A stretch of DNA of 26,846 nt from a virus. Made by a program: the position numbers and the translations under genes. The notes beneath the pieces were generated by a model. That model saw only the letters and a list, made by a program, of their open reading frames with translations. It was not told the DNA's origin and did no database searches. Within the stretch, counting starts at the first letter, position 1. Each line of letters begins with the position of its first letter. This document shows positions 12,607 to 26,057 of the stretch, one piece after another. The DNA is taken from positions 1-26,846 of IMG/VR virus record IMGVR_UViG_3300024273_001132. One strand, given 5' to 3'.

Positions 12607-14481
12607 ATGGCACTACAAAAACTTAGAGAATATTTTCAAGCAGCTAATTCAAATGAATTTAATGATTTATTAAAGAATAGAGTATTAGTCACTGAAAAAA
12701 TAGCTGCACCGTCACTACATATCCAGAGAGAAAATACAGGCTTTAAATACTATAAGACAGGAAGCAACACTCCGGTGAATATAGTAGATAGGACTATTAT
12801 TTCATTATATGAAATTGCAATAAATCACATGCAAAGTCTTTCTTTGGATAAAAAAAATCAATTGCCAATTGATTGGAGATTTGGCTTTGAGTATTTGCCA
12901 GAACTTAATGTTTCCAAAATAGAATATGCCAAAGTACCTGAAAATAATTTAATCTTAACACATATCCAACAGATTGGAGAAAATGGTAAAGTTAAGAAAA
13001 CCATTAACGATCCAATTATTTTAAACAAGTGGAAAAATGTACTAGAAGTCCAAGGACCTAGTATAATATTTGATGGGTATTTAAATGAGTTGCAGAAAAC
13101 AGAGTTGTTAGAGTTGTTAGAAATGAACGACAAGTCGTTTGGAGACAGCTTCGACTATTTAGTAGAAACTGAAGATAAAACATCATTTACTAAAAAAATT
13201 ATTAAACTATTTAATCCAAATGAAAGAGCCTCAATACTTCACGAGGACCTAGAGCACGAAATTGATGGATTAATTATTAATTTTATTGATGGAAAAACTA
13301 CTTCATCTTTTAAATTAGAAGACTTTAATAGATCTAAAATTAATGAAACAACTTCAGCAAGTCACATGTATCAAATTACAATTGCTGATTTACTAGAATA
13401 TTTAGTATCCTATGATTTAGGAGAAATAGTACTTGAAGAAGAAAACGCAGGAAACAGATACATCGAATTAATGTCGGTTTTATTTAATGGGTACATTGAA
13501 AAGAATGCAACTAAATTTGTTGGAGTTAATTTTGAAAATGCAGAATTTTCTGAGTCTAATTCTTTTAAATTAAATCCTAAGTATATTACCAATGAAAAGA
13601 CTTTAAAACATATCCAAAATGATGTGTTATCAGAACTTTTTAAAATAACACTAAGTTCATTTAGAAAGAAGAGAAATAAAACAACTGACATAATCAATCA
13701 AGACATGTTAGATAGGATGAATGAAATTATCGAGAACATTGACACTAAGATATTTGTTGAAAATACCGATGAAAATGCCATATATGATTATCAAAACTTT
13801 ATCATGCATAATAAAATTAAAAGCTCTGTTAATTTAAACGAGGCACTTAAAGTAAATCACACGGAACAGGGTAAAGAATTAGTAAATATGTTTGTTGGAA
13901 GATTTCAACCGTTTACACTAGGACATGCAAAGGTATTAGAAACAATTTACAAAGAGAACGGATATCCAGTGATTGTATTTTTAGTAAAATCAAAAACTGT
14001 TAAAAAAGGAGAAGAGTTTAGCAAACCATACGATGAGGCAACTCAGATTAAAATGTTTAATGAAGTAAAGAAACAATATAAATTCTTAAAAGAAATTAAA
14101 ATAATTCCAACAGGAGCTATTGATACGATGTTTAATGAACTTAGACCTAAATACGAACCTGTTCTTTGGGGAACCGGAAGTGATAGATTAAAAAGTTATG
14201 GTTTTCAAGTAAACAATGATTCTTATAGAGATCAATTAAATGCAAGAGCTGATTTTGGACTTTTTGAAATACCAAGAACTGATGATAATATATCAGCAAC
14301 TCAGGTTAGAAATGCCTTATTAGATGGTGATGAAAAGACATTTCAACAAATGACACCAAAGGCAATTCATGGAATGTATAAAGAATTAAAATCAAAATTA
14401 GAAGATGCAGTCGGAGTCACTTCAGAATCTCTAGTGATTGAAGGTTTAATGACGTTCGAACAATTCATGAAAAAACTATAA
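12607..14481 (+). CDS. Head-packaged fusion: ligase-like nucleotidyltransferase plus NMN-adenylyltransferase-like domain (624 residues)
   Basis: The N-terminal half shows a divergent ligase-like core: motif I Lys31 in VTEKIAAPS (the usual KxDG Gly replaced), motif III RFGFEYLPE (Glu95), motif IV HEIDGLIINF (218-225) and motif V SFKLED (Lys236). The C-terminal half (~427-600) is a nucleotidylyltransferase of the NMNAT/cytidylyltransferase fold: GRFQPFTLGH (431-440, the T-x-G-H signature), WGTGSDR (521-527) and ISATQVRNAL (562-571, the ISxTxxR signature). Two prohead-type sites flank this domain: VNLNE412|A413 exactly between the halves, and ESLVIE612|G613 near the end. The last 10 residues (MTFEQFMKKL) look like a C-terminal capsid-targeting peptide. 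The maturation protease could thus release a free NMNAT-like enzyme of ~200 residues. Substrate (NMN, nicotinate or other nucleotide) unproven. Confidence 0.7.
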   Translation: MALQKLREYFQAANSNEFNDLLKNRVLVTEKIAAPSLHIQRENTGFKYYKTGSNTPVNIVDRTIISLYEIAINHMQSLSLDKKNQLPIDWRFGFEYLPELNVSKIEYAKVPENNLILTHIQQIGENGKVKKTINDPIILNKWKNVLEVQGPSIIFDGYLNELQKTELLELLEMNDKSFGDSFDYLVETEDKTSFTKKIIKLFNPNERASILHEDLEHEIDGLIINFIDGKTTSSFKLEDFNRSKINETTSASHMYQITIADLLEYLVSYDLGEIVLEEENAGNRYIELMSVLFNGYIEKNATKFVGVNFENAEFSESNSFKLNPKYITNEKTLKHIQNDVLSELFKITLSSFRKKRNKTTDIINQDMLDRMNEIIENIDTKIFVENTDENAIYDYQNFIMHNKIKSSVNLNEALKVNHTEQGKELVNMFVGRFQPFTLGHAKVLETIYKENGYPVIVFLVKSKTVKKGEEFSKPYDEATQIKMFNEVKKQYKFLKEIKIIPTGAIDTMFNELRPKYEPVLWGTGSDRLKSYGFQVNNDSYRDQLNARADFGLFEIPRTDDNISATQVRNALLDGDEKTFQQMTPKAIHGMYKELKSKLEDAVGVTSESLVIEGLMTFEQFMKKL

Positions 14482-19189: not shown

Positions 19190-19468
19190 ATGAATAACAT
19201 TTTAGAAGAAGCAAACGCAATCGTAAACAACAGAAGCGAAGAAGCAGATCGTAATTATGGACCATTCTCTGAAGGTATGGATCGTGCTGCATTAATTTTT
19301 AAAGGTATGACAGGACTTGAAGTAACTGGTGAACATATGTTCAAAGCACTAGTTGCTCTTAAGTTTTCTCGAGAATCTTATAATCACAAGACTGATAATT
19401 TGTTAGATGCAGTCGCTTACATCCAAGGATTGGACAATTACATTAATGAAAAACAAAACAATGGTTAG
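19190..19468 (+). CDS. DUF6378-like small phage protein
   Basis: The 92-residue sequence matches my recollection of the phage DUF6378 family: an N-terminal helix, a YGPFSEGMDRAALIF segment (24-38), a central helix with LVALKFSRESYNHKTDNLLDAVAYI (66-82 region) and an ending GLDNYI. The family is short and helical, common in phages, and has no established activity. The Lys/Arg plus Asp-Asn arrangement recalls all-alpha pyrophosphohydrolases, so a nucleotide-related role is conceivable. The gene overlaps the next gene's start by 8 bases (ATGGTTAG), indicating translational coupling with the SGNH-like protein. Confidence 0.6.
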   Translation: MNNILEEANAIVNNRSEEADRNYGPFSEGMDRAALIFKGMTGLEVTGEHMFKALVALKFSRESYNHKTDNLLDAVAYIQGLDNYINEKQNNG

Positions 19469-20528
19469 TATTAAAGATATTATACATCTTTTAAAGGACG
19501 ACACGATGTGTCCTGCTAAAAAAATTGCAATCGATGATGTTGTAACTACATATAGTTCTAAACAGGCTAGCCATAAAAGTGCATGGGCTTATCTTTTAGC
19601 AGCCCAATTAAAAAGTATCGGACTAAATGCTGAAGTTATTGATAAATCAGGAGACATACACCAGTATGATATATGGTTAGTTGCACTACCGATGGAATTC
19701 CAAGGTACTTATAATTTATTCGGAGGAGCTACTGATGAACCAGCAGCAAGAATGCAAAGACTATTAGATTTTCAAGGTGAAGTTTTTTGTCTTAACAGAG
19801 AAATGCCAGATGTTGGAGCATTTGCAAATAGTAGAATGAAAGCCTGTTCAGATCTTTGGAAAGCAATTGACGTCGAAACTCTATCCGCTAAATGTAAAAA
19901 TATTAAGACACTAGATCTTACATTAGATTCAGATACCTTTGTTCTTGGAGACTCTCACTCGGTCTCAGTCTGGCATCCTGGTTGTAATATTAGTAGGAAT
20001 GATGGTAAAACCTTATTTGGAGTTTTAAGAGAAGGGATGCAATCCTATATTCCTGAAGGGACTAAGCACTTAATTACTTATTTCGGAAACATCGATGTTA
20101 GACATCATTTGTGTCGCCAAGAAAAACCAGCAGAATCTGTTAAGAAACTAGTTAAAGATTATTTTGAACATTTAAAATCTCTTAATATTGAAAAGATTTC
20201 AGTTGTTAAATTACTTCCAATTGAATTTGAAGAACGCAGAATACCAAAGACTGGATTCTATAAAAAAGCCCCATTTGCAGGTTCTCAGCGCGAAAGAACC
20301 CAATTAATGCAGATATTTAACGAAGAGGTTAGCAATCTCAAGGCTATATATAATATGAATGTAATCGAATGGCCAAGCGATTGGTATGATATAGACCCCA
20401 AGTATTTCGCGGATACTTATATGGAAAAACCAGGATCTGTACACTTATCAAGAGCTTATTATCAATATGATTTCATTACACTCGAAAAGAATAAATCACT
20501 CGAAAAGAAATTAAATTCACTTTTTTGA
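19461..20528 (+). CDS. SGNH/GDSL-like protein with N-terminal Rossmann-like domain and NSLF C-terminal tail
   Basis: Start chosen at ATG 19461, which overlaps the upstream stop; in-frame ATGs at 19446 and 19407 lie further inside the previous gene. The product is 355 residues. The first ~150 look like an alpha/beta (glycosyltransferase-B or Rossmann-type) domain. Then SGNH-type blocks appear: block I VLGDSHSVSV (Ser165), block III YFGNIDVRHH (Asn210) and block V PGSVHLS (His328). The Asp normally three residues before that His is not obvious, so esterase activity is uncertain. It ends in EKKLNSLF, like other replication or modification proteins here. Next to an inositol-phosphate synthase and DNA-modification genes, it may add or remove an acyl or glycosyl group; this is inference. 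Confidence 0.6.
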   Translation: MVSIKDIIHLLKDDTMCPAKKIAIDDVVTTYSSKQASHKSAWAYLLAAQLKSIGLNAEVIDKSGDIHQYDIWLVALPMEFQGTYNLFGGATDEPAARMQRLLDFQGEVFCLNREMPDVGAFANSRMKACSDLWKAIDVETLSAKCKNIKTLDLTLDSDTFVLGDSHSVSVWHPGCNISRNDGKTLFGVLREGMQSYIPEGTKHLITYFGNIDVRHHLCRQEKPAESVKKLVKDYFEHLKSLNIEKISVVKLLPIEFEERRIPKTGFYKKAPFAGSQRERTQLMQIFNEEVSNLKAIYNMNVIEWPSDWYDIDPKYFADTYMEKPGSVHLSRAYYQYDFITLEKNKSLEKKLNSLF

Positions 20529-20578
20529 AACTTTTAGAGAAACACAAGTATAACTATTAATAAATTAAAATTTAAAAA

Positions 20579-21769
20579 ATGAGTACAATTAAAGTAGCAA
20601 TTATCGGAGCAGGAAACTGCGCTAAATCGTTAGTCGAAGGAGTTCAGTATTATACTGAAAACCCAAACAACATAACTGGAATGATGAAGTCTAATATCGG
20701 AGGATATTTAGCAGAAAACATTGAATTCGTAGCTGGATTTGAAATCGACGAGCGTAAAGTTAATCAAACATTAGGTTATGCACTAAAGCAACGACCAAAC
20801 TGTTCATGGAACATTGTCGAAGATATTAAATCTACAGCACCTGTTTATGAAGCACCTGTTATCGATGGATATGCGGCTCACATGGATAATTATCCTGAAT
20901 CAAATCGTTTCTTAGTTGATGAATACTTAAGAAATACAACAGATGGCAATAGAACTTCTATATCTCCGCGTAAAATTCGCGAGTGGAAGGATTCAATCAT
21001 TGAAAAATTAAAAAAACATGGAGTTGAAGTATTGGTAAACTATTTACCAGTAGGTTCTCAAAAGACTACAGAATTTTGGGCTGAAATTTGCTTAGAAACT
21101 GGAATTTCTTTTGTAAACTGTATTCCCGTATTTATCGCATCTAACCCAGTTTGGGAGAAAAGATTTATCGAAGCAGGTATTCCATTAATTGGAGATGATA
21201 TGCGTTCTCAATTCGGTGCAAGTATTCTTTCTCAAATGTTACAAGAATTAGCATTCGAAAGAGGTCACCATGTAAAGGCACACATCCAAAGAAATGTAGG
21301 TGGTAACACTGATTTCTTAAACATGGAAGATTCATCTCGTTTAGCATCTAAAAAGATATCTAAAGAAAATGTTATTAGAGCACAGAACGAAATCAGAGGT
21401 ATTTCTACTGAGGATTCATTCTTACATGCAGGTCCTTCTGAATATATCCCATTCTATGGTGATAATAAAGTTGCAAACTTCCGTTTAGAACTTGAAGGAT
21501 TTGGTGGAGCTCCAGTAACACTAGATGCTCAATTAAGTGTTCAAGACAGTCCAAACTCTGCAGGTGTAGTAATTGATGCAATTCGTTACTTGAAAGTTGC
21601 AAGAGAATTAGGAGTTGTTGGAGCCTTAAGAGGTCCTTCAGCATTTACTCAAAAAACTCCACCAGACCAAATGATGTTTGCTGACGCAGTTTATGAATGT
21701 ACAGAATTAGCAAATCGCAGATTAACAAATTCTACAAGAGCTCAATTAGCAGTATCTTCTGTTAAATAA
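20579..21769 (+). CDS. Myo-inositol-1-phosphate synthase (L-glucose-6-phosphate cyclase type; D-glucose-6-phosphate as substrate in the family)
   Basis: The 396-residue protein matches the short bacterial form of inositol-3-phosphate synthase. The NAD-binding loop is VAIIGAGNCAKSLVEG (6-21). Family segments follow: VNYLPVGSQ (153-161), FVNCIPVFIASNP (178-190), PLIGDDMRSQFGA (202-214), NVGGNTDFLNM (239-249), the catalytic-region SKKISK (257-262) and DSPNSAGVVIDAIRYLK (323-339). The family uses NAD+ to convert glucose-6-phosphate to 1D-myo-inositol 3-phosphate. The call title's L-form wording should be ignored; the substrate is D-glucose-6-phosphate. All key segments are intact, so the enzyme is probably active. 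In a phage it is an auxiliary metabolic gene; possible uses are lipid, cell-surface or DNA-base decoration. It has its own terminator and a 50-base upstream gap. Confidence 0.9.
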   Translation: MSTIKVAIIGAGNCAKSLVEGVQYYTENPNNITGMMKSNIGGYLAENIEFVAGFEIDERKVNQTLGYALKQRPNCSWNIVEDIKSTAPVYEAPVIDGYAAHMDNYPESNRFLVDEYLRNTTDGNRTSISPRKIREWKDSIIEKLKKHGVEVLVNYLPVGSQKTTEFWAEICLETGISFVNCIPVFIASNPVWEKRFIEAGIPLIGDDMRSQFGASILSQMLQELAFERGHHVKAHIQRNVGGNTDFLNMEDSSRLASKKISKENVIRAQNEIRGISTEDSFLHAGPSEYIPFYGDNKVANFRLELEGFGGAPVTLDAQLSVQDSPNSAGVVIDAIRYLKVARELGVVGALRGPSAFTQKTPPDQMMFADAVYECTELANRRLTNSTRAQLAVSSVK

Positions 21770-21786
21770 TTAAATTCAAGTAATAT

Positions 21787-21814
21787 AAAGAGAGCCTAAC
21801 CGCTCTCTTTTTTT
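21787..21814 (+). terminator. Rho-independent terminator after the inositol-phosphate synthase gene
   Basis: AAAGAGAGC (21787-21795) pairs with GCTCTCTTT (21802-21810) over a CTAACC loop, with a T-run to 21814. It lies 17 bases after the stop codon. Confidence 0.85.
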
Positions 21815-21830
21815 CATTAAACTAAAAAAC

Positions 21831-22250
21831 ATGACACTAGACTCTAAAATTTTAAACAGAATAAAACTATTTTATACCAAGAAAGAAGTTTATGGATATG
21901 ACTTTGATGGTGTTATATCAATTGGAATAACTCCAAGATCAGACAGGGATGTTGTAATAACTGGAAGATGTATTGATGAACAAGAGCATGTCCTGAATAT
22001 TCTTAAAGAACGTGGAATTAAATGTAAAGTTTATTTTAATCCAATGACTCTTGCTGAAAGAGGAGATCATACAGTAGAGGCTAGGACATTCTCTGGGAAT
22101 CATAAGGCAACCACGATCAAACAATTAAGAAAAGAAGGTGTAAATATTGTTCGTTTTTTCGAAGATGATCCGATTCAACTGGGTTTAATTAAAGATTCTC
22201 ATCCAGAGATACAAATAGTTCACATAGTTTCTGAACTAGTACAAAAATAA
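21831..22250 (+). CDS. HAD-like phosphatase (139 residues)
   Basis: It shows the four HAD motifs in a compact protein: motif I GYDFDGVIS (Asp24, Asp26), motif II VITGR (Thr44), motif III Lys at HKATT (Lys92) and motif IV FFEDDP (Glu111, Asp112, Asp113). No cap domain is visible, so macromolecular or small phosphorylated substrates are both possible. It lies between the inositol-phosphate synthase and a glycosyltransferase, 6 bases before the latter. Dephosphorylating inositol phosphate, a sugar phosphate or a modified nucleotide are reasonable guesses. Related small HAD proteins also occur as lone phage genes of unknown role. Confidence 0.7.
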   Translation: MTLDSKILNRIKLFYTKKEVYGYDFDGVISIGITPRSDRDVVITGRCIDEQEHVLNILKERGIKCKVYFNPMTLAERGDHTVEARTFSGNHKATTIKQLRKEGVNIVRFFEDDPIQLGLIKDSHPEIQIVHIVSELVQK

Positions 22251-22256
22251 AATGAA

Positions 22257-23102
22257 ATGAAAATAATAATACCATCATATAAAAGACCAGGCATCAATCC
22301 AACAATAGAAAACATGCCTGATGAAATAGTTTCTAAATATGTATATATTGCAGTTAGAGATGAAGAATACGAAGAATATACCAAGTCACATCCTGGCGTA
22401 AAAATTCATAATTTAGGTAAAGGTGTAGACGGTATAGTTGAAACTAGGCAAAGAATAAACGAACAATTTACTGGTAAAATAATCATAATGGACGATGATA
22501 ATGTTTTTTGTCATACCATTAAAGGATCTCATCTAAAGGATCCTACGAAAAAAGATTTTATTAAAAGAGGAGAGCCCTTATCTACCGTTGAAGAATTTGA
22601 AGAACTTATCGAATATGTTGACCAATTATTAGATAAGTATGCATTCGGTTCCATGAGAAACCTTAATTTTGTTAGAGATGCAGCATGGTTACCATACACA
22701 GAAAATGTAGTGTGCTATTGGATATACTTCTTTAATTTAGAAACATTTGATTATAAAAATTGTTCATATAGAAATGGTCCAGCTTCAGGATTAGCCGAAG
22801 ATACTTATATATTTTTAGAATGGTTTGATAAAGGTAACGATATTTTTATTCTAGTAAAGTGGAACGTTAAGGAAACTACAAGTAATAGTAGTACTCAAAA
22901 TGGAATGGAAGGTGGATGTAATACTCCAGATCGTGGAATCAGATATAAGAATTCTATGATAGAACTAAATAGAATGTTCCCACAATACACTAAACTCAAG
23001 GAGAGTTCTAAGAATAGCGAAGTATACGGTTTTGAAGTACCAACACTTAGGACTAGATTAAATAAAAATAAAAGAAATCAAAATTCTAAACCATTATTTT
23101 AA
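22257..23102 (+). CDS. GT-A-type glycosyltransferase, candidate DNA glycosyltransferase (TAGT-like)
   Basis: The 281-residue protein begins with MKIIIPSYKRPG, a GT-A opening. A metal-binding acidic motif follows a hydrophobic strand (KIIIMDDDN, 74-82), preceded by the substrate-contact segment GIVETRQRI (59-67). A second acidic pair, LAEDTY (179-184), lies where GT-A enzymes have a catalytic base. This layout resembles the TET-associated glycosyltransferases described in phage base-modification operons. The immediate downstream neighbour resembles another base-modification enzyme, and both end in -LF (NSKPLF here). DNA as acceptor is therefore favoured, although capsular or tail-sugar transfer cannot be excluded. 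No TET/JBP dioxygenase is in the window. Confidence 0.65.
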   Translation: MKIIIPSYKRPGINPTIENMPDEIVSKYVYIAVRDEEYEEYTKSHPGVKIHNLGKGVDGIVETRQRINEQFTGKIIIMDDDNVFCHTIKGSHLKDPTKKDFIKRGEPLSTVEEFEELIEYVDQLLDKYAFGSMRNLNFVRDAAWLPYTENVVCYWIYFFNLETFDYKNCSYRNGPASGLAEDTYIFLEWFDKGNDIFILVKWNVKETTSNSSTQNGMEGGCNTPDRGIRYKNSMIELNRMFPQYTKLKESSKNSEVYGFEVPTLRTRLNKNKRNQNSKPLF

Positions 23103-23105
23103 AAC

Positions 23106-24146
23106 ATGAGAGAATTAGTAAATATGCAAGTTGTCGATCGAATCGGCTACTTCTTTAATAAGGTAAATGACAGGGCTCTTTACCAAATGGGAATCAGCGA
23201 TTCTTACGACAGCGGAGGTGATGAAGCGCTTGGAGAAACTGTCGAATATTTTCATCCACAGATAACATTAGACGACAGGATGCGATACATAATGGAGAAC
23301 ATAGTCTTTTCAAACATGTCAATGGACAATATTATATGTAATACGATAATTTCCCACTTTTACGGTGCTAGGGGAATTCATCAAATACTGACTAGAGATC
23401 CAAATCCAAAAACAGCACTTATAGATTTTGAAAGACTCTTGGTCGATAAAGAGTATGAAACAGTTATTCGTAAAAATCTAAATGATGCAGTAGGATTAGG
23501 ACTTAGTGTGTATGGAAGTACTGAACTTAGAACAAGTCTCTATGGTGCTTCTAACACACACGTAGCAGACATCAGAGGCATTCCCAGAAATGCGGACAAA
23601 ATTAACATATTATTATGGGTTGCCAGTTTTATTCCACGAGGAATCACAAGGCAAATGGCAGAAGTTAACTCATTACATGAAATGTTTAATATATTAACTC
23701 AAATTGAAGGAGTTGGATCCTATTATGGCTATCATTGTTCTACTTCAAACTCTGTAAATCCAAGAATTAATATTGATCACGATGAAAGATTTTGTGTACC
23801 TGGACCAGGAGCAAGAATAACACTCGATATGATGTTTCCACCAGGATCTAAAATTCCATACGGAGACAGGGTAATTTGGTTTAGAGAAAACTACAAAGAT
23901 CTGATCGGAGATATTCCACTGCACGAATCTACACATAATGTAATAATAAACGGACAAAGAGTATTTAGAGATGATCAAAATGAATTAAAAACATACGGTT
24001 GCGAGGTTGGACTCTGTCAATTTGGAGTTTACACCAGGCTAAGTGATAATAGAAACTTAATTAACAAAAGAAAAGTTGCAAGAGCAGACGAGGGTATTAT
24101 GGAATATTTTTATAATAATAATTTTGAACAAAACCAACTTTTCTAA
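23106..24146 (+). CDS. Alpha-glutamyl/putrescinyl thymine pyrophosphorylase-like (amino-acid:DNA transferase family) protein
   Basis: This 346-residue protein has hallmarks of the aGPT-Pplase family: a helical region leading to NILLWVASFIPRGI (167-180), a helix-hairpin-helix-like segment ILTQIEGVGSYYGYHC (196-211), the conserved D-x-x-F-x-x-PGPGAR pattern (DERFCVPGPGAR, 226-237) and a C-terminal CEVGLCQFGVYTR (299-311). Family members replace the pyrophosphate of 5-pyrophosphoryloxymethyl-uracil in DNA by an amino acid or polyamine, making hypermodified thymine. The gene is 3 bases after the glycosyltransferase and 26 before the dUTPase-like gene, a fitting context. It ends in EQNQLF, which fits the bacterial clamp-binding pattern (QxxLF). 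The kinase and hydroxymethylating enzyme of this pathway are not in the window. Substrate is unproven. Confidence 0.7.
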   Translation: MRELVNMQVVDRIGYFFNKVNDRALYQMGISDSYDSGGDEALGETVEYFHPQITLDDRMRYIMENIVFSNMSMDNIICNTIISHFYGARGIHQILTRDPNPKTALIDFERLLVDKEYETVIRKNLNDAVGLGLSVYGSTELRTSLYGASNTHVADIRGIPRNADKINILLWVASFIPRGITRQMAEVNSLHEMFNILTQIEGVGSYYGYHCSTSNSVNPRINIDHDERFCVPGPGARITLDMMFPPGSKIPYGDRVIWFRENYKDLIGDIPLHESTHNVIINGQRVFRDDQNELKTYGCEVGLCQFGVYTRLSDNRNLINKRKVARADEGIMEYFYNNNFEQNQLF

Positions 24147-24172
24147 TATAACTACTATAAAAAATAAAAACA

Positions 24173-24640
24173 ATGGCAAACATAGACAATGAATGTAAAG
24201 ATCTAGAAGTACAAGACTTCTATAGTAATTCAACAACACATCTAGCAGATATAATGGAGCATCAAAAAGAGATGCAAGAGAAAACATACGGTTTTAATTT
24301 CGATGATATGACAATTAGACAAATTATGGATTTTTGGCACGTCAATACACATGCAGTGGTTGATGAAATTCACGAAATGACTGATGCTCTTGGAGGTATT
24401 AAAGATGGAAGTGGAAATGCAGTATGGAAATACTGGAAAAAAGACTTTGCAAAATATGATACTTTAAAGATTTCTGATATGTCAGAAGGAGACAAGAAAG
24501 AATTGTATATGGAATGGGTAGATATTTTACACTTCTTTATTAACTATGCGGCTTCTATGGGACTTGACGCAAAAACAGCTTTCAATTATTATTTTGCTAA
24601 AGCTGAAGAAAACAAGCAAAGACAACAAAGAGGATATTAA
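24173..24640 (+). CDS. Dimeric all-alpha dUTPase-like (MazG superfamily) pyrophosphohydrolase
   Basis: The 155-residue helical protein carries the metal-binding E-x-x-E pattern (DEIHEMTDALG, Glu65 and Glu68) with W-K-Y-W downstream (85-88). It also has the second E-x-x-D pattern (MEWVDILHFFINYAASMG, Glu114 and Asp117) and an ending NKQRQQRGY that matches the dimeric dUTPase family signature. It likely hydrolyses dUTP (or a related dNTP) to the monophosphate, removing uracil from the pool and feeding thymidylate or modified-pyrimidine synthesis. It sits between the base-modification candidate and DNA polymerase. Substrate could instead be dCTP, as in T4 gp56, which performs both dCTPase and dUTPase activities. 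Confidence 0.75.
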   Translation: MANIDNECKDLEVQDFYSNSTTHLADIMEHQKEMQEKTYGFNFDDMTIRQIMDFWHVNTHAVVDEIHEMTDALGGIKDGSGNAVWKYWKKDFAKYDTLKISDMSEGDKKELYMEWVDILHFFINYAASMGLDAKTAFNYYFAKAEENKQRQQRGY

Positions 24641-24659: not shown

Positions 24660-26057
24660 ATGATATTAGACGTAGAGCAAAGAGAAAAGGATGTTATCAT
24701 ATCCTATTATGATAAAGAAGGAATGGTTGCTTATAAACAATATCCAATAACAAAATTTCAAAACTGGTATGTTTGTGATGATAAAGACAAAGGAGCTAGT
24801 CCTGAATTTAAAAACTGGGATGGTAGATCTGTTAAATTAGGTGCAGGTAAACAATTTAATAAGTTTTCTCTTGTCTATTTCATGGATTCATTATCAGAAA
24901 AAGACAGAGAAGAAATTTTAGCCTACAATATGCCTAAAACATACTTTGTCGATATTGAAACAGAAATCATTGATGGTTTTCCAAAAGCAGAAGAAGCAAA
25001 GACTAGAATTTTATCCTTCTCTATTATTACGCCAGAGAGAAAGGCTATCGTATTAGGTTTAGAAGACATGTCATCTGATAAAATCAAAAAGATTCAAGAT
25101 GATACTAATGAATACTTCAAAAACTTCGATATGGATTGGGAATTTAAATATCATAAATTCAACTCTGAATATGATATGGTGTATACATTCTTGATGAAGT
25201 TTCTTCCAAAGTTTCCAATGATGACTGGTTGGAACTTTATCAACTATGACTGGCAATATATCGTAAATCGTTGCAAAAGACTTCAGATAGATATTAGCGA
25301 GGTTGGTATGACAGGATCTCTTGATAGAAACGATTCTCGTCCACTACACATAGGAATCCTAGATTACATGCAATTGTATGATAAATATGATAGAAGTGTA
25401 AAGGTCAAAGAATCAAATTCGCTAGATTATGTATCAAGTCAAGTGCTTGATGTTAACAAAATCAAATTCACAGGTTCATTACAGGATTTGTACAGGGATA
25501 ACTTTGTCAAGTACATATATTATAATGTGGTCGATTCAGTTTTAGTGTACTACATAGATCAGAAGTTAAAATCGATGGAGGTTCTATTAACACTAGCAAA
25601 CATAACAAAAATGCCATTGTATAAGGCAAGTTCTCCAGTTGCGGTTACTGAAGCTATTATTGCCAGAAAACTCGCGGAACAGGGAATGAGAATTGGTTCT
25701 GAAAATAAAGAAGACAGTCAAAAAGAAGGACAATTTGCAGGAGCATATGTAAAAGAACCAATTCTTGGATTCTATGAAGGTGTAAGTGCATTCGATTTTG
25801 CGTCTCTATATCCTTCGATAATGAGACAATTTAATATTTCTCCCGATTCTTTTATCGGAAAGATACCAAAGCATGAAATTAAAGAAAAAAGATTAAATAA
25901 AGAAGTAATTGTATGTGATAACGGAGTTGTATATAATACAAATGATTCAGTACTTAGAAAGATTCTAGCAGACTTATACGAACAACGTAAAGACTATAAA
26001 AAAACAGCGTATGAGTATTATACAAAGACTGACAGACTAAAAAAGCTTCTAAATTAA
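24660..26057 (+). CDS. 43: gp43-like family B DNA polymerase, N-terminal portion only (split or truncated)
   Basis: The 465 residues carry the intact proofreading domain: Exo I YFVDIETE (Asp98, Glu100), Exo II GWNFINYDWQYI (Asn192, Asp197) and Exo III YYNVVDS (Tyr288, Asp292). Polymerase motif A follows (FDFASLYPSI, Asp379). The frame stops at TAA 26055-26057 after the finger-helix region (LADLYEQRKDYKKTAYEYY). Motif B (Kx3NSxYG), motif C (DTDS) and the thumb are absent, whereas T4 gp43 has ~900 residues. Only 45 bases follow before NrdB starts, so the rest is not next door in another frame. A split polymerase is known in some T4-like Aeromonas phages (43A and 43B); otherwise this is a truncated or nuclease-only form. 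Confidence 0.85.
   Translation: MILDVEQREKDVIISYYDKEGMVAYKQYPITKFQNWYVCDDKDKGASPEFKNWDGRSVKLGAGKQFNKFSLVYFMDSLSEKDREEILAYNMPKTYFVDIETEIIDGFPKAEEAKTRILSFSIITPERKAIVLGLEDMSSDKIKKIQDDTNEYFKNFDMDWEFKYHKFNSEYDMVYTFLMKFLPKFPMMTGWNFINYDWQYIVNRCKRLQIDISEVGMTGSLDRNDSRPLHIGILDYMQLYDKYDRSVKVKESNSLDYVSSQVLDVNKIKFTGSLQDLYRDNFVKYIYYNVVDSVLVYYIDQKLKSMEVLLTLANITKMPLYKASSPVAVTEAIIARKLAEQGMRIGSENKEDSQKEGQFAGAYVKEPILGFYEGVSAFDFASLYPSIMRQFNISPDSFIGKIPKHEIKEKRLNKEVIVCDNGVVYNTNDSVLRKILADLYEQRKDYKKTAYEYYTKTDRLKKLLN

Follow-up and report, generated by a model that had tools for sequence, protein, structure and literature searches.

Why should a T4-like phage carry a myo-inositol-phosphate synthase (Ino1) among genes that resemble those of DNA base modification? 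The question arises from the virus record IMGVR_UViG_3300024273_001132 of IMG/VR, a 26,846 bp fragment of a larger genome, referred to here over its whole length as the window, which is T4-like by its genes (SSB, UvsY-like protein, helicase, primase, the N-terminal half of a DNA polymerase and NrdB). An original prediction, made from the letters alone, placed six genes between positions 19461 and 24640 and proposed an inositol-derived base decoration. All six lie where they had been placed, on the + strand, and our comparisons indicate that the island is probably a hypermodification cassette that makes inositol and joins it to phage cytosines via 5-hydroxymethylcytosine (hmC). The island and its upstream neighbour comprise the following features.

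19190..19468, + strand: DUF6378 protein, 92 amino acids (PF19905, 9e-9), which adjoins the SGNH gene upstream in the clade as well (synteny)
19461..20528, + strand: SGNH protein, 355 amino acids (PHROG 13881, 2e-65)
20579..21769, + strand: Ino1, myo-inositol-phosphate synthase, 396 amino acids (PF01658, 2e-24; PHROG 33138, 5e-147; PDB 1gr0, 3e-78)
21787..21810, + strand: terminator-like hairpin between Ino1 and HAD, a 9-bp stem followed by a T tract
21831..22250, + strand: minimal HAD phosphatase, 139 amino acids, a putative inositol-phosphate phosphatase (invariant HAD motifs)
22257..23102, + strand: TAGT glycosyltransferase, 281 amino acids, in a variable tailoring slot (PF20691, 1e-8; PHROG 842, 9e-22)
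23106..24146, + strand: HMUDK_hel protein, 346 amino acids, with a DNA-glycosylase-like fold, candidate base-flipping partner or transferase (PF18723, 3e-12)
24173..24640, + strand: T4 gp56-like dCTPase/dUTPase, 155 amino acids (phmmer with T4 gp56, E 4e-18; PHROG 173, 6e-15)

The Ino1 assignment, already made in the original prediction, was borne out by the Pfam, PHROG and PDB matches, and membership of the myo-inositol-phosphate synthase family is unambiguous on sequence grounds. The active-site motifs NVGGNTDF, SKKISK, DSPNSAG and QKTPP are conserved, with a K to R change in DDMRSQ. The best PDB match, Mycobacterium tuberculosis inositol-3-phosphate synthase, scored 267 bits, versus 146 bits for the second best, a five-membered-cyclitol-phosphate synthase. 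The neighbouring HAD protein has no Pfam match, yet residues D24, D26, T44, K92 and D112/D113 are invariant across the 26 homologues compared, which upholds its earlier reading as a HAD phosphatase. It is 41–42% identical to the HAD proteins adjoining Ino1 in Menderavirus and in Caulobacter phage Cr30, and we propose that it acts as an inositol-phosphate phosphatase.

IMG/VR was searched separately with HMUDK_hel and Ino1 as seeds, yielding about 110 loci, with some contigs counted twice; such scans recover close relatives of the seeds only and could miss phage Ino1 genes that lie in other settings. Counting loci with enough flanking sequence, Ino1 loci of the window clade carried SGNH in 98/98, HAD in 106/106 and HMUDK_hel in 76/76 cases. 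Conversely, Ino1 was present in 92/92 HMUDK_hel loci, and searches seeded with HMUDK_hel also gave Ino1 in every contig whose flanks were long enough. The co-occurrence of the inositol gene with modification genes, which the original prediction had proposed to check in relatives, was thus found throughout. The clade shares the order DUF6378, SGNH, Ino1, HAD, slot, HMUDK_hel, gp56, and a syntenic cassette in over 100 related loci is far beyond chance. SGNH, Ino1, HAD and HMUDK_hel are also contiguous in another order (Ino1, HAD, HMUDK_hel, SGNH, then a C5-cytosine-methylase homologue) in phage contigs that were binned with genomes of Rhodobacteraceae and Planctomycetaceae (L193–L195). Because this quartet recurs rearranged while the slot varies, we regard the quartet as the conserved unit and the slot enzyme as optional.

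Two variations accompany the quartet. A few relatives have an insertion between SGNH and Ino1 that encodes a cysteine-synthase-like protein (L026, 3863–4762; L027, 6621–7502). The C5-cytosine-methylase homologue, whose CPCAGLS motif is unusual, stands beside divergent SGNH/HMUDK_hel/Ino1 loci (L144, 13391–14680; L191, 9820–11046; L193, 8137–9372; L194, 5265–6542; L199); we discounted it as part of the pathway, as its homologues occur in divergent SGNH/HMUDK_hel loci only and none was found in the window clade.

The SGNH protein, whose start at 19461 agrees with the starts of its homologues, has the domain that the original prediction gave it: a C-terminal SGNH/GDSL domain with a GDSHS motif and an invariant His328. 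Across the homologues, G163-D164-S165, G209-N210 and H328 are all invariant; the classical DxxH acid position reads GSVH, and E322 is invariant. Residues 152–345 of the AlphaFold2 model (predicted local distance difference test, pLDDT, 85) match SGNH folds with Z about 12–13 (12.8), and the N-terminal domain is weakly like that of T4 beta-glucosyltransferase (beta-GT; hhalign E 4e-5, probability 69). The protein encoded at 23106–24146 had been taken for a relative of aGPT-Pplase, an amino-acid:DNA transferase. That identity fell: the protein matches PF18723 (HMUDK_hel; 47 bits versus a cut-off of 25) and not the ADDT family PF18724, and hhalign against 13 ADDTs gave only E 0.13. The name HMUDK_hel refers to the helical part of 5-hydroxymethyldeoxyuridine (5-hmdU) kinases, reflecting a role with these enzymes. 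The nearest PDB structure to the AlphaFold2 model of the window protein (pLDDT 87) is the transferase PUGT (8z2n; Z 11.2 over 227 residues, 3.7 Å), followed by queuine-salvage and DNA-glycosylase folds, and its BFVD matches include the Aeromonas phage 31 fusion protein and the SP10 5-hmdU DNA kinase. The alignments behind both predictions are shallow, and PDB sequence searches with SGNH, HMUDK_hel and TAGT gave no useful matches. In Aeromonas phage 44RR, SGNH and HMUDK_hel are fused into one protein; because of this fusion we count SGNH, on sequence grounds, as part of the cassette core, where it would act on a hydroxymethyl group presented by HMUDK_hel. No HMUDK_hel was found on plasmids.

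Which base would be decorated? Among 17 larger IMG/VR contigs searched, 7 encode a divergent thymidylate-synthase homologue; all six contigs above 100 kb are among these 7. Those homologues that were aligned resemble T4 gp42 in having Asp at a position that is Asn in thymidylate synthases. The last gene of the island, predicted to be dUTPase-like, holds as a nucleotide enzyme, its more precise identity being a homologue of the T4 gp56 dCTPase/dUTPase. Because relatives have an Asp-type dCMP hydroxymethylase and the window has the gp56 homologue, the modified base is probably hmC. 5-Hydroxymethyluracil (hmU) is disfavoured by the same hydroxymethylase; the search for hydroxymethylase homologues suggested in the original prediction thus produced the gp42-type enzyme, and the base it points to is hmC, not hmU. 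That prediction had also named a kinase and TET/JBP as genes to look for, and neither was found in the window-clade contigs examined: TET/JBP was absent from the 17 larger contigs, with Cr30 as positive control, and no homologue of the P-loop kinase (5-hmdU DNA kinase) was found in the window, in clade loci or in eight clade contigs of 78–236 kb, which are possibly incomplete.

The slot between HAD and HMUDK_hel is occupied by an FkbM-type methyltransferase in 73 loci and by an enzyme like T4 beta-GT, with 25–29% identity to it, in 8; some loci have both, and the slot is empty in the group of locus L082. TAGT fills it in the window only, among the window-clade loci searched. The TAGT assignment itself was confirmed (PF20691, 35.4 bits versus a cut-off of 27.5), and its best PHROG, 842, is beta-glucosyl-HMC-alpha-glucosyltransferase. 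No close relatives of this protein were found in IMG/VR, and it is the only recognised glycosyltransferase of the window. The glycosyltransferase of the original prediction is therefore present but, by its distribution, is an optional, swappable tailoring gene rather than a constant part of the island. T6 TAGT adds a second glucose onto glucosylated hmC (PMC13216743); by analogy, the window TAGT may put a sugar on inositol already joined to hmC.

Ino1 and HAD also travel together outside the window clade. Ino1 was found in 18 phage records, 16 of Stenotrophomonas phages of the Menderavirus kind and two of Cr30. In Menderavirus IME-SM1 the pair is flanked by FolE and QueC/QueE, in a 7-deazaguanine operon; a paper on phage Ps15 places Ino1 in the queuosine gene region and regards it as a gene acquired from bacteria (PMC9025141). 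In Cr30 the pair comes after the genes for ADDT and a TAGT-like protein, and the same run encodes a Tet_JBP protein. Scans were seeded with these Menderavirus and Cr30 Ino1 proteins, and 37 loci of the second scan divide into 23 TET/ADDT-type, 5 SGNH/HMUDK_hel-type and 4 deazaguanine-type loci, plus 5 short ones that show HAD and a kinase only. TET-type loci have the order TET, optional glycosyl- or methyltransferase, ADDT, Ino1, HAD and a P-loop kinase homologous to gp49 of PaMx11; judged by gene content, they hold a complete hydroxylate–phosphorylate–transfer route plus an inositol supply. HAD and DNA-base-modification genes were present at all phage Ino1 loci examined that were long enough, in systems of three kinds. 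A tree of 42 Ino1 proteins required 8 changes among the three contexts, and, taken one at a time, the three groups need no fewer than 5, 4 and 3 changes on its well-supported branches; the count is rough, as some context labels come from incomplete loci, the bootstrap is unsettled and a pair of long branches joins. With about 8 context changes, the inositol supply has therefore been recruited repeatedly to DNA-base modification, and on this tree a single inherited linkage does not account for the pattern.

Several genes near these loci deserve mention. Beside the Menderavirus pair, gp065 (L002, 10482–11693; PHROG 10773, 403 amino acids) lies between QueC and QueE and is a candidate enzyme for using inositol on deazaguanine. 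The P-loop kinases of the modification loci in Cr30 (L003, 10952–11587) and PaMx11 (L178, 19218–19787) are labelled ‘terminase small subunit’, as is PHROG 800, and are probably misannotated. The Cr30 Tet_JBP dioxygenase (L003, 2697–4025; E 9e-23) is annotated as a ‘putative SNF2 DNA repair protein’, and an Acb3-type CBASS inhibitor (L003, 14846–15646; PF25187, 2e-68) is encoded about 6 kb downstream of the Cr30 Ino1.

From gene content, fold families, conserved motifs and repeated co-occurrence we infer the following route, including its substrates, joining chemistry, order of steps and the presence of the base in DNA. Ino1 would convert glucose-6-phosphate to inositol-phosphate, from which the HAD enzyme would strip the phosphate. 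A gp42-type dCMP hydroxymethylase, as seen in relatives, together with the gp56-type dCTPase would put hmC into DNA. HMUDK_hel would then flip hmC out, and SGNH with HMUDK_hel would couple inositol to its hydroxymethyl group. Finally, the slot enzyme would cap the inositol, with a sugar via TAGT here, and in relatives with a methyl group via FkbM or a sugar via the beta-GT-like enzyme. The inositol-derived decoration of the original prediction is strongly supported by the co-occurrence of Ino1 and HAD in three kinds of system; the amino-acid transferase and the glycosyltransferase as a fixed component drop out of it. A route through CDP-inositol, using a cytidylyltransferase-like gene at 12607–14481, was considered and set aside: the gene is outside the conserved quartet, and the Cr30 nucleotidyltransferase is RlaP-like and unrelated. 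The window gene itself encodes a 624-residue protein with a C-terminal cytidylyltransferase-like domain (PF01467) that is kept in many relatives.

Some observations weigh against inositol being joined to hmC in this way. SGNH enzymes normally transfer acyl groups, and inositol is not an acyl group; no inositol- or hmC-activating enzyme was found in the window clade; and no gp42 hydroxymethylase match was found in the window, which is a fragment. 44RR has the SGNH–HMUDK_hel protein without Ino1, and a lone HMUDK_hel homologue (54% identity) lies on a Crocinitomix algicola contig with no Ino1, HAD or SGNH nearby (L192, 5911–6990). The same pathway could also run with the roles reassigned: HMUDK_hel may itself be the transferase, attaching inositol to hmC in the manner of ADDT/PUGT, which couples glycine to 5-phosphomethyl-dU, and leaving SGNH only to activate, acylate or trim. 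The structural proximity of HMUDK_hel to PUGT and the coupling of Ino1 with ADDT transferases in the TET/kinase class make this a possibility to be taken seriously, if tentatively. Against it stand the separate genes for PUGT (ADDT) and HMUDK_hel in PaMx11, the naming of the family as a kinase's helical part, the lack of sequence similarity to ADDT by hhalign, and the failure to find a kinase in the clade that could activate hmC.

The decoration might instead be a cyclitol other than myo-inositol, made by an Ino1 homologue with a different product. The five-membered-cyclitol-phosphate synthase is, after all, the second-best PDB homologue, and most phage enzymes carry Arg at the motif position that is Lys in M. 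tuberculosis Ino1, itself a point against our reading. We consider this rather unlikely: the window protein is far nearer to the M. tuberculosis enzyme, the remaining motifs are conserved, and the Lys is retained in Menderavirus and some others. Ino1 and HAD could also serve host-directed metabolism, as a source of osmolyte or lipid headgroup or as a general diversion of carbon, their adjacency to modification genes being due to chance or inherited synteny. One paper lists phage Ino1 among acquired bacterial genes and gives it no role (PMC9025141), the genes sit in a replication and nucleotide region, and the terminator-like hairpin at 21787–21810, one of the terminators foreseen between some of the genes, parts Ino1 from HAD and so also tells against a single pathway. 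Yet the link to three different modification systems is repeated, it survives rearrangement, and no exception was seen among Ino1 loci with adequate flanks, which makes a purely metabolic role improbable. Conventional glycosylation of hmC by TAGT, with inositol no part of the base, would suit the best PHROG of the window TAGT, a T-even second-sugar glucosyltransferase. It is nevertheless highly improbable, given that no other window-clade locus searched has TAGT while Ino1, HAD, SGNH and HMUDK_hel are kept, and that T6 TAGT acts on an existing sugar, for which the window offers no second recognisable glycosyltransferase.

Inositol joined to hmC by the quartet would set the window apart from the systems closest to it. 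Thymidine hypermodification in PaMx11 shares the HMUDK_hel family and fold, and a hydroxymethyl-pyrimidine handle that is modified further in DNA. Its kinase (gp49), HMUDK_hel (gp50) and ADDT/PUGT (gp46, the solved 5-phosphomethyl-dU glycinyltransferase) are separate genes, whereas no kinase or ADDT homologue was found in the window clade, where SGNH seems to stand in for the kinase; the window also indicates cytosine rather than thymidine, and inositol supply genes rather than amino-acid chemistry. T-even hmC glucosylation (gp42, gp56, alpha/beta-GT and T6 TAGT) resembles it in the gp56 homologue, the gp42-type hydroxymethylase of relatives and the TAGT or beta-GT-like tailoring; in contrast, the first group on hmC would be inositol, not a sugar, and the slot of most relatives holds a methyltransferase and no glycosyltransferase. 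The Cr30 locus (TET, ADDT, TAGT, Ino1, HAD, kinase) likewise places Ino1 and HAD in a modification gene set with a TAGT-like protein, but with TET/JBP, ADDT and a P-loop kinase in place of SGNH and HMUDK_hel. The Menderavirus operon (IME-SM1, Ps15) also holds the pair inside a base-modification gene set, although its pathway is that of a purine, 7-deazaguanine. Aeromonas phages 44RR and 31 (ORF233c, PHROG 17781) encode homologues of the SGNH and HMUDK_hel modules alongside a gp42-type hydroxymethylase; there the modules are fused, Ino1 is lacking and a Na+/solute symporter is adjacent.

That symporter lies directly upstream of the Aeromonas fusion gene (L004, 4369–5892; L176, 3259–4818) and might import the group attached to DNA. 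The 44RR protein is closest to sodium/glucose cotransporter structures, which makes it at most a candidate importer of inositol. In Aeromonas phage 25, an SGNH protein without HMUDK_hel (L005, 3773–4837) is encoded near a UDP-galactopyranose mutase and may make a galactofuranose-type DNA decoration.

Taken more broadly, we lean, with some reserve, towards inositol, a cyclitol and not a sugar, as a DNA decoration that is widespread in phages and borne by two or more kinds of base (pyrimidines and probably 7-deazaguanine), put here on hmC by a new kinase-free SGNH and HMUDK_hel enzyme and capped by a swappable methyl- or glycosyltransferase. Our literature search found nothing linking inositol to phage DNA, although several key hypermodification papers were beyond its reach, which leaves the case for novelty incomplete. 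Because inosityl-hmC and glucosyl-hmC are isobaric, the former could have been overlooked and may hide in existing data. If the proposal is right, cyclitols would be a new chemical class on DNA, arising through repeated recruitment of a two-gene supply module. It would give a role to the functionally unexplained Ino1 genes of the cultured phages Cr30 and Menderavirus and to the uncharacterised SGNH–HMUDK_hel protein of classical Aeromonas phages, and would yield new enzymes for labelling DNA and point to new targets of host defences that depend on modification. It is directly testable in phages already in collections.

The window as a whole has a G+C content of 31%, with A-rich gene starts at which Shine-Dalgarno sites are not clear. 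Megablast against 50,697 phage records found no close relatives, and there were no Rfam or tRNA matches. Downstream of the island, at 24660–26057, the DNA polymerase gene covers the N-terminal half only (465 amino acids) and is followed by NrdB, indicating a split family B polymerase.

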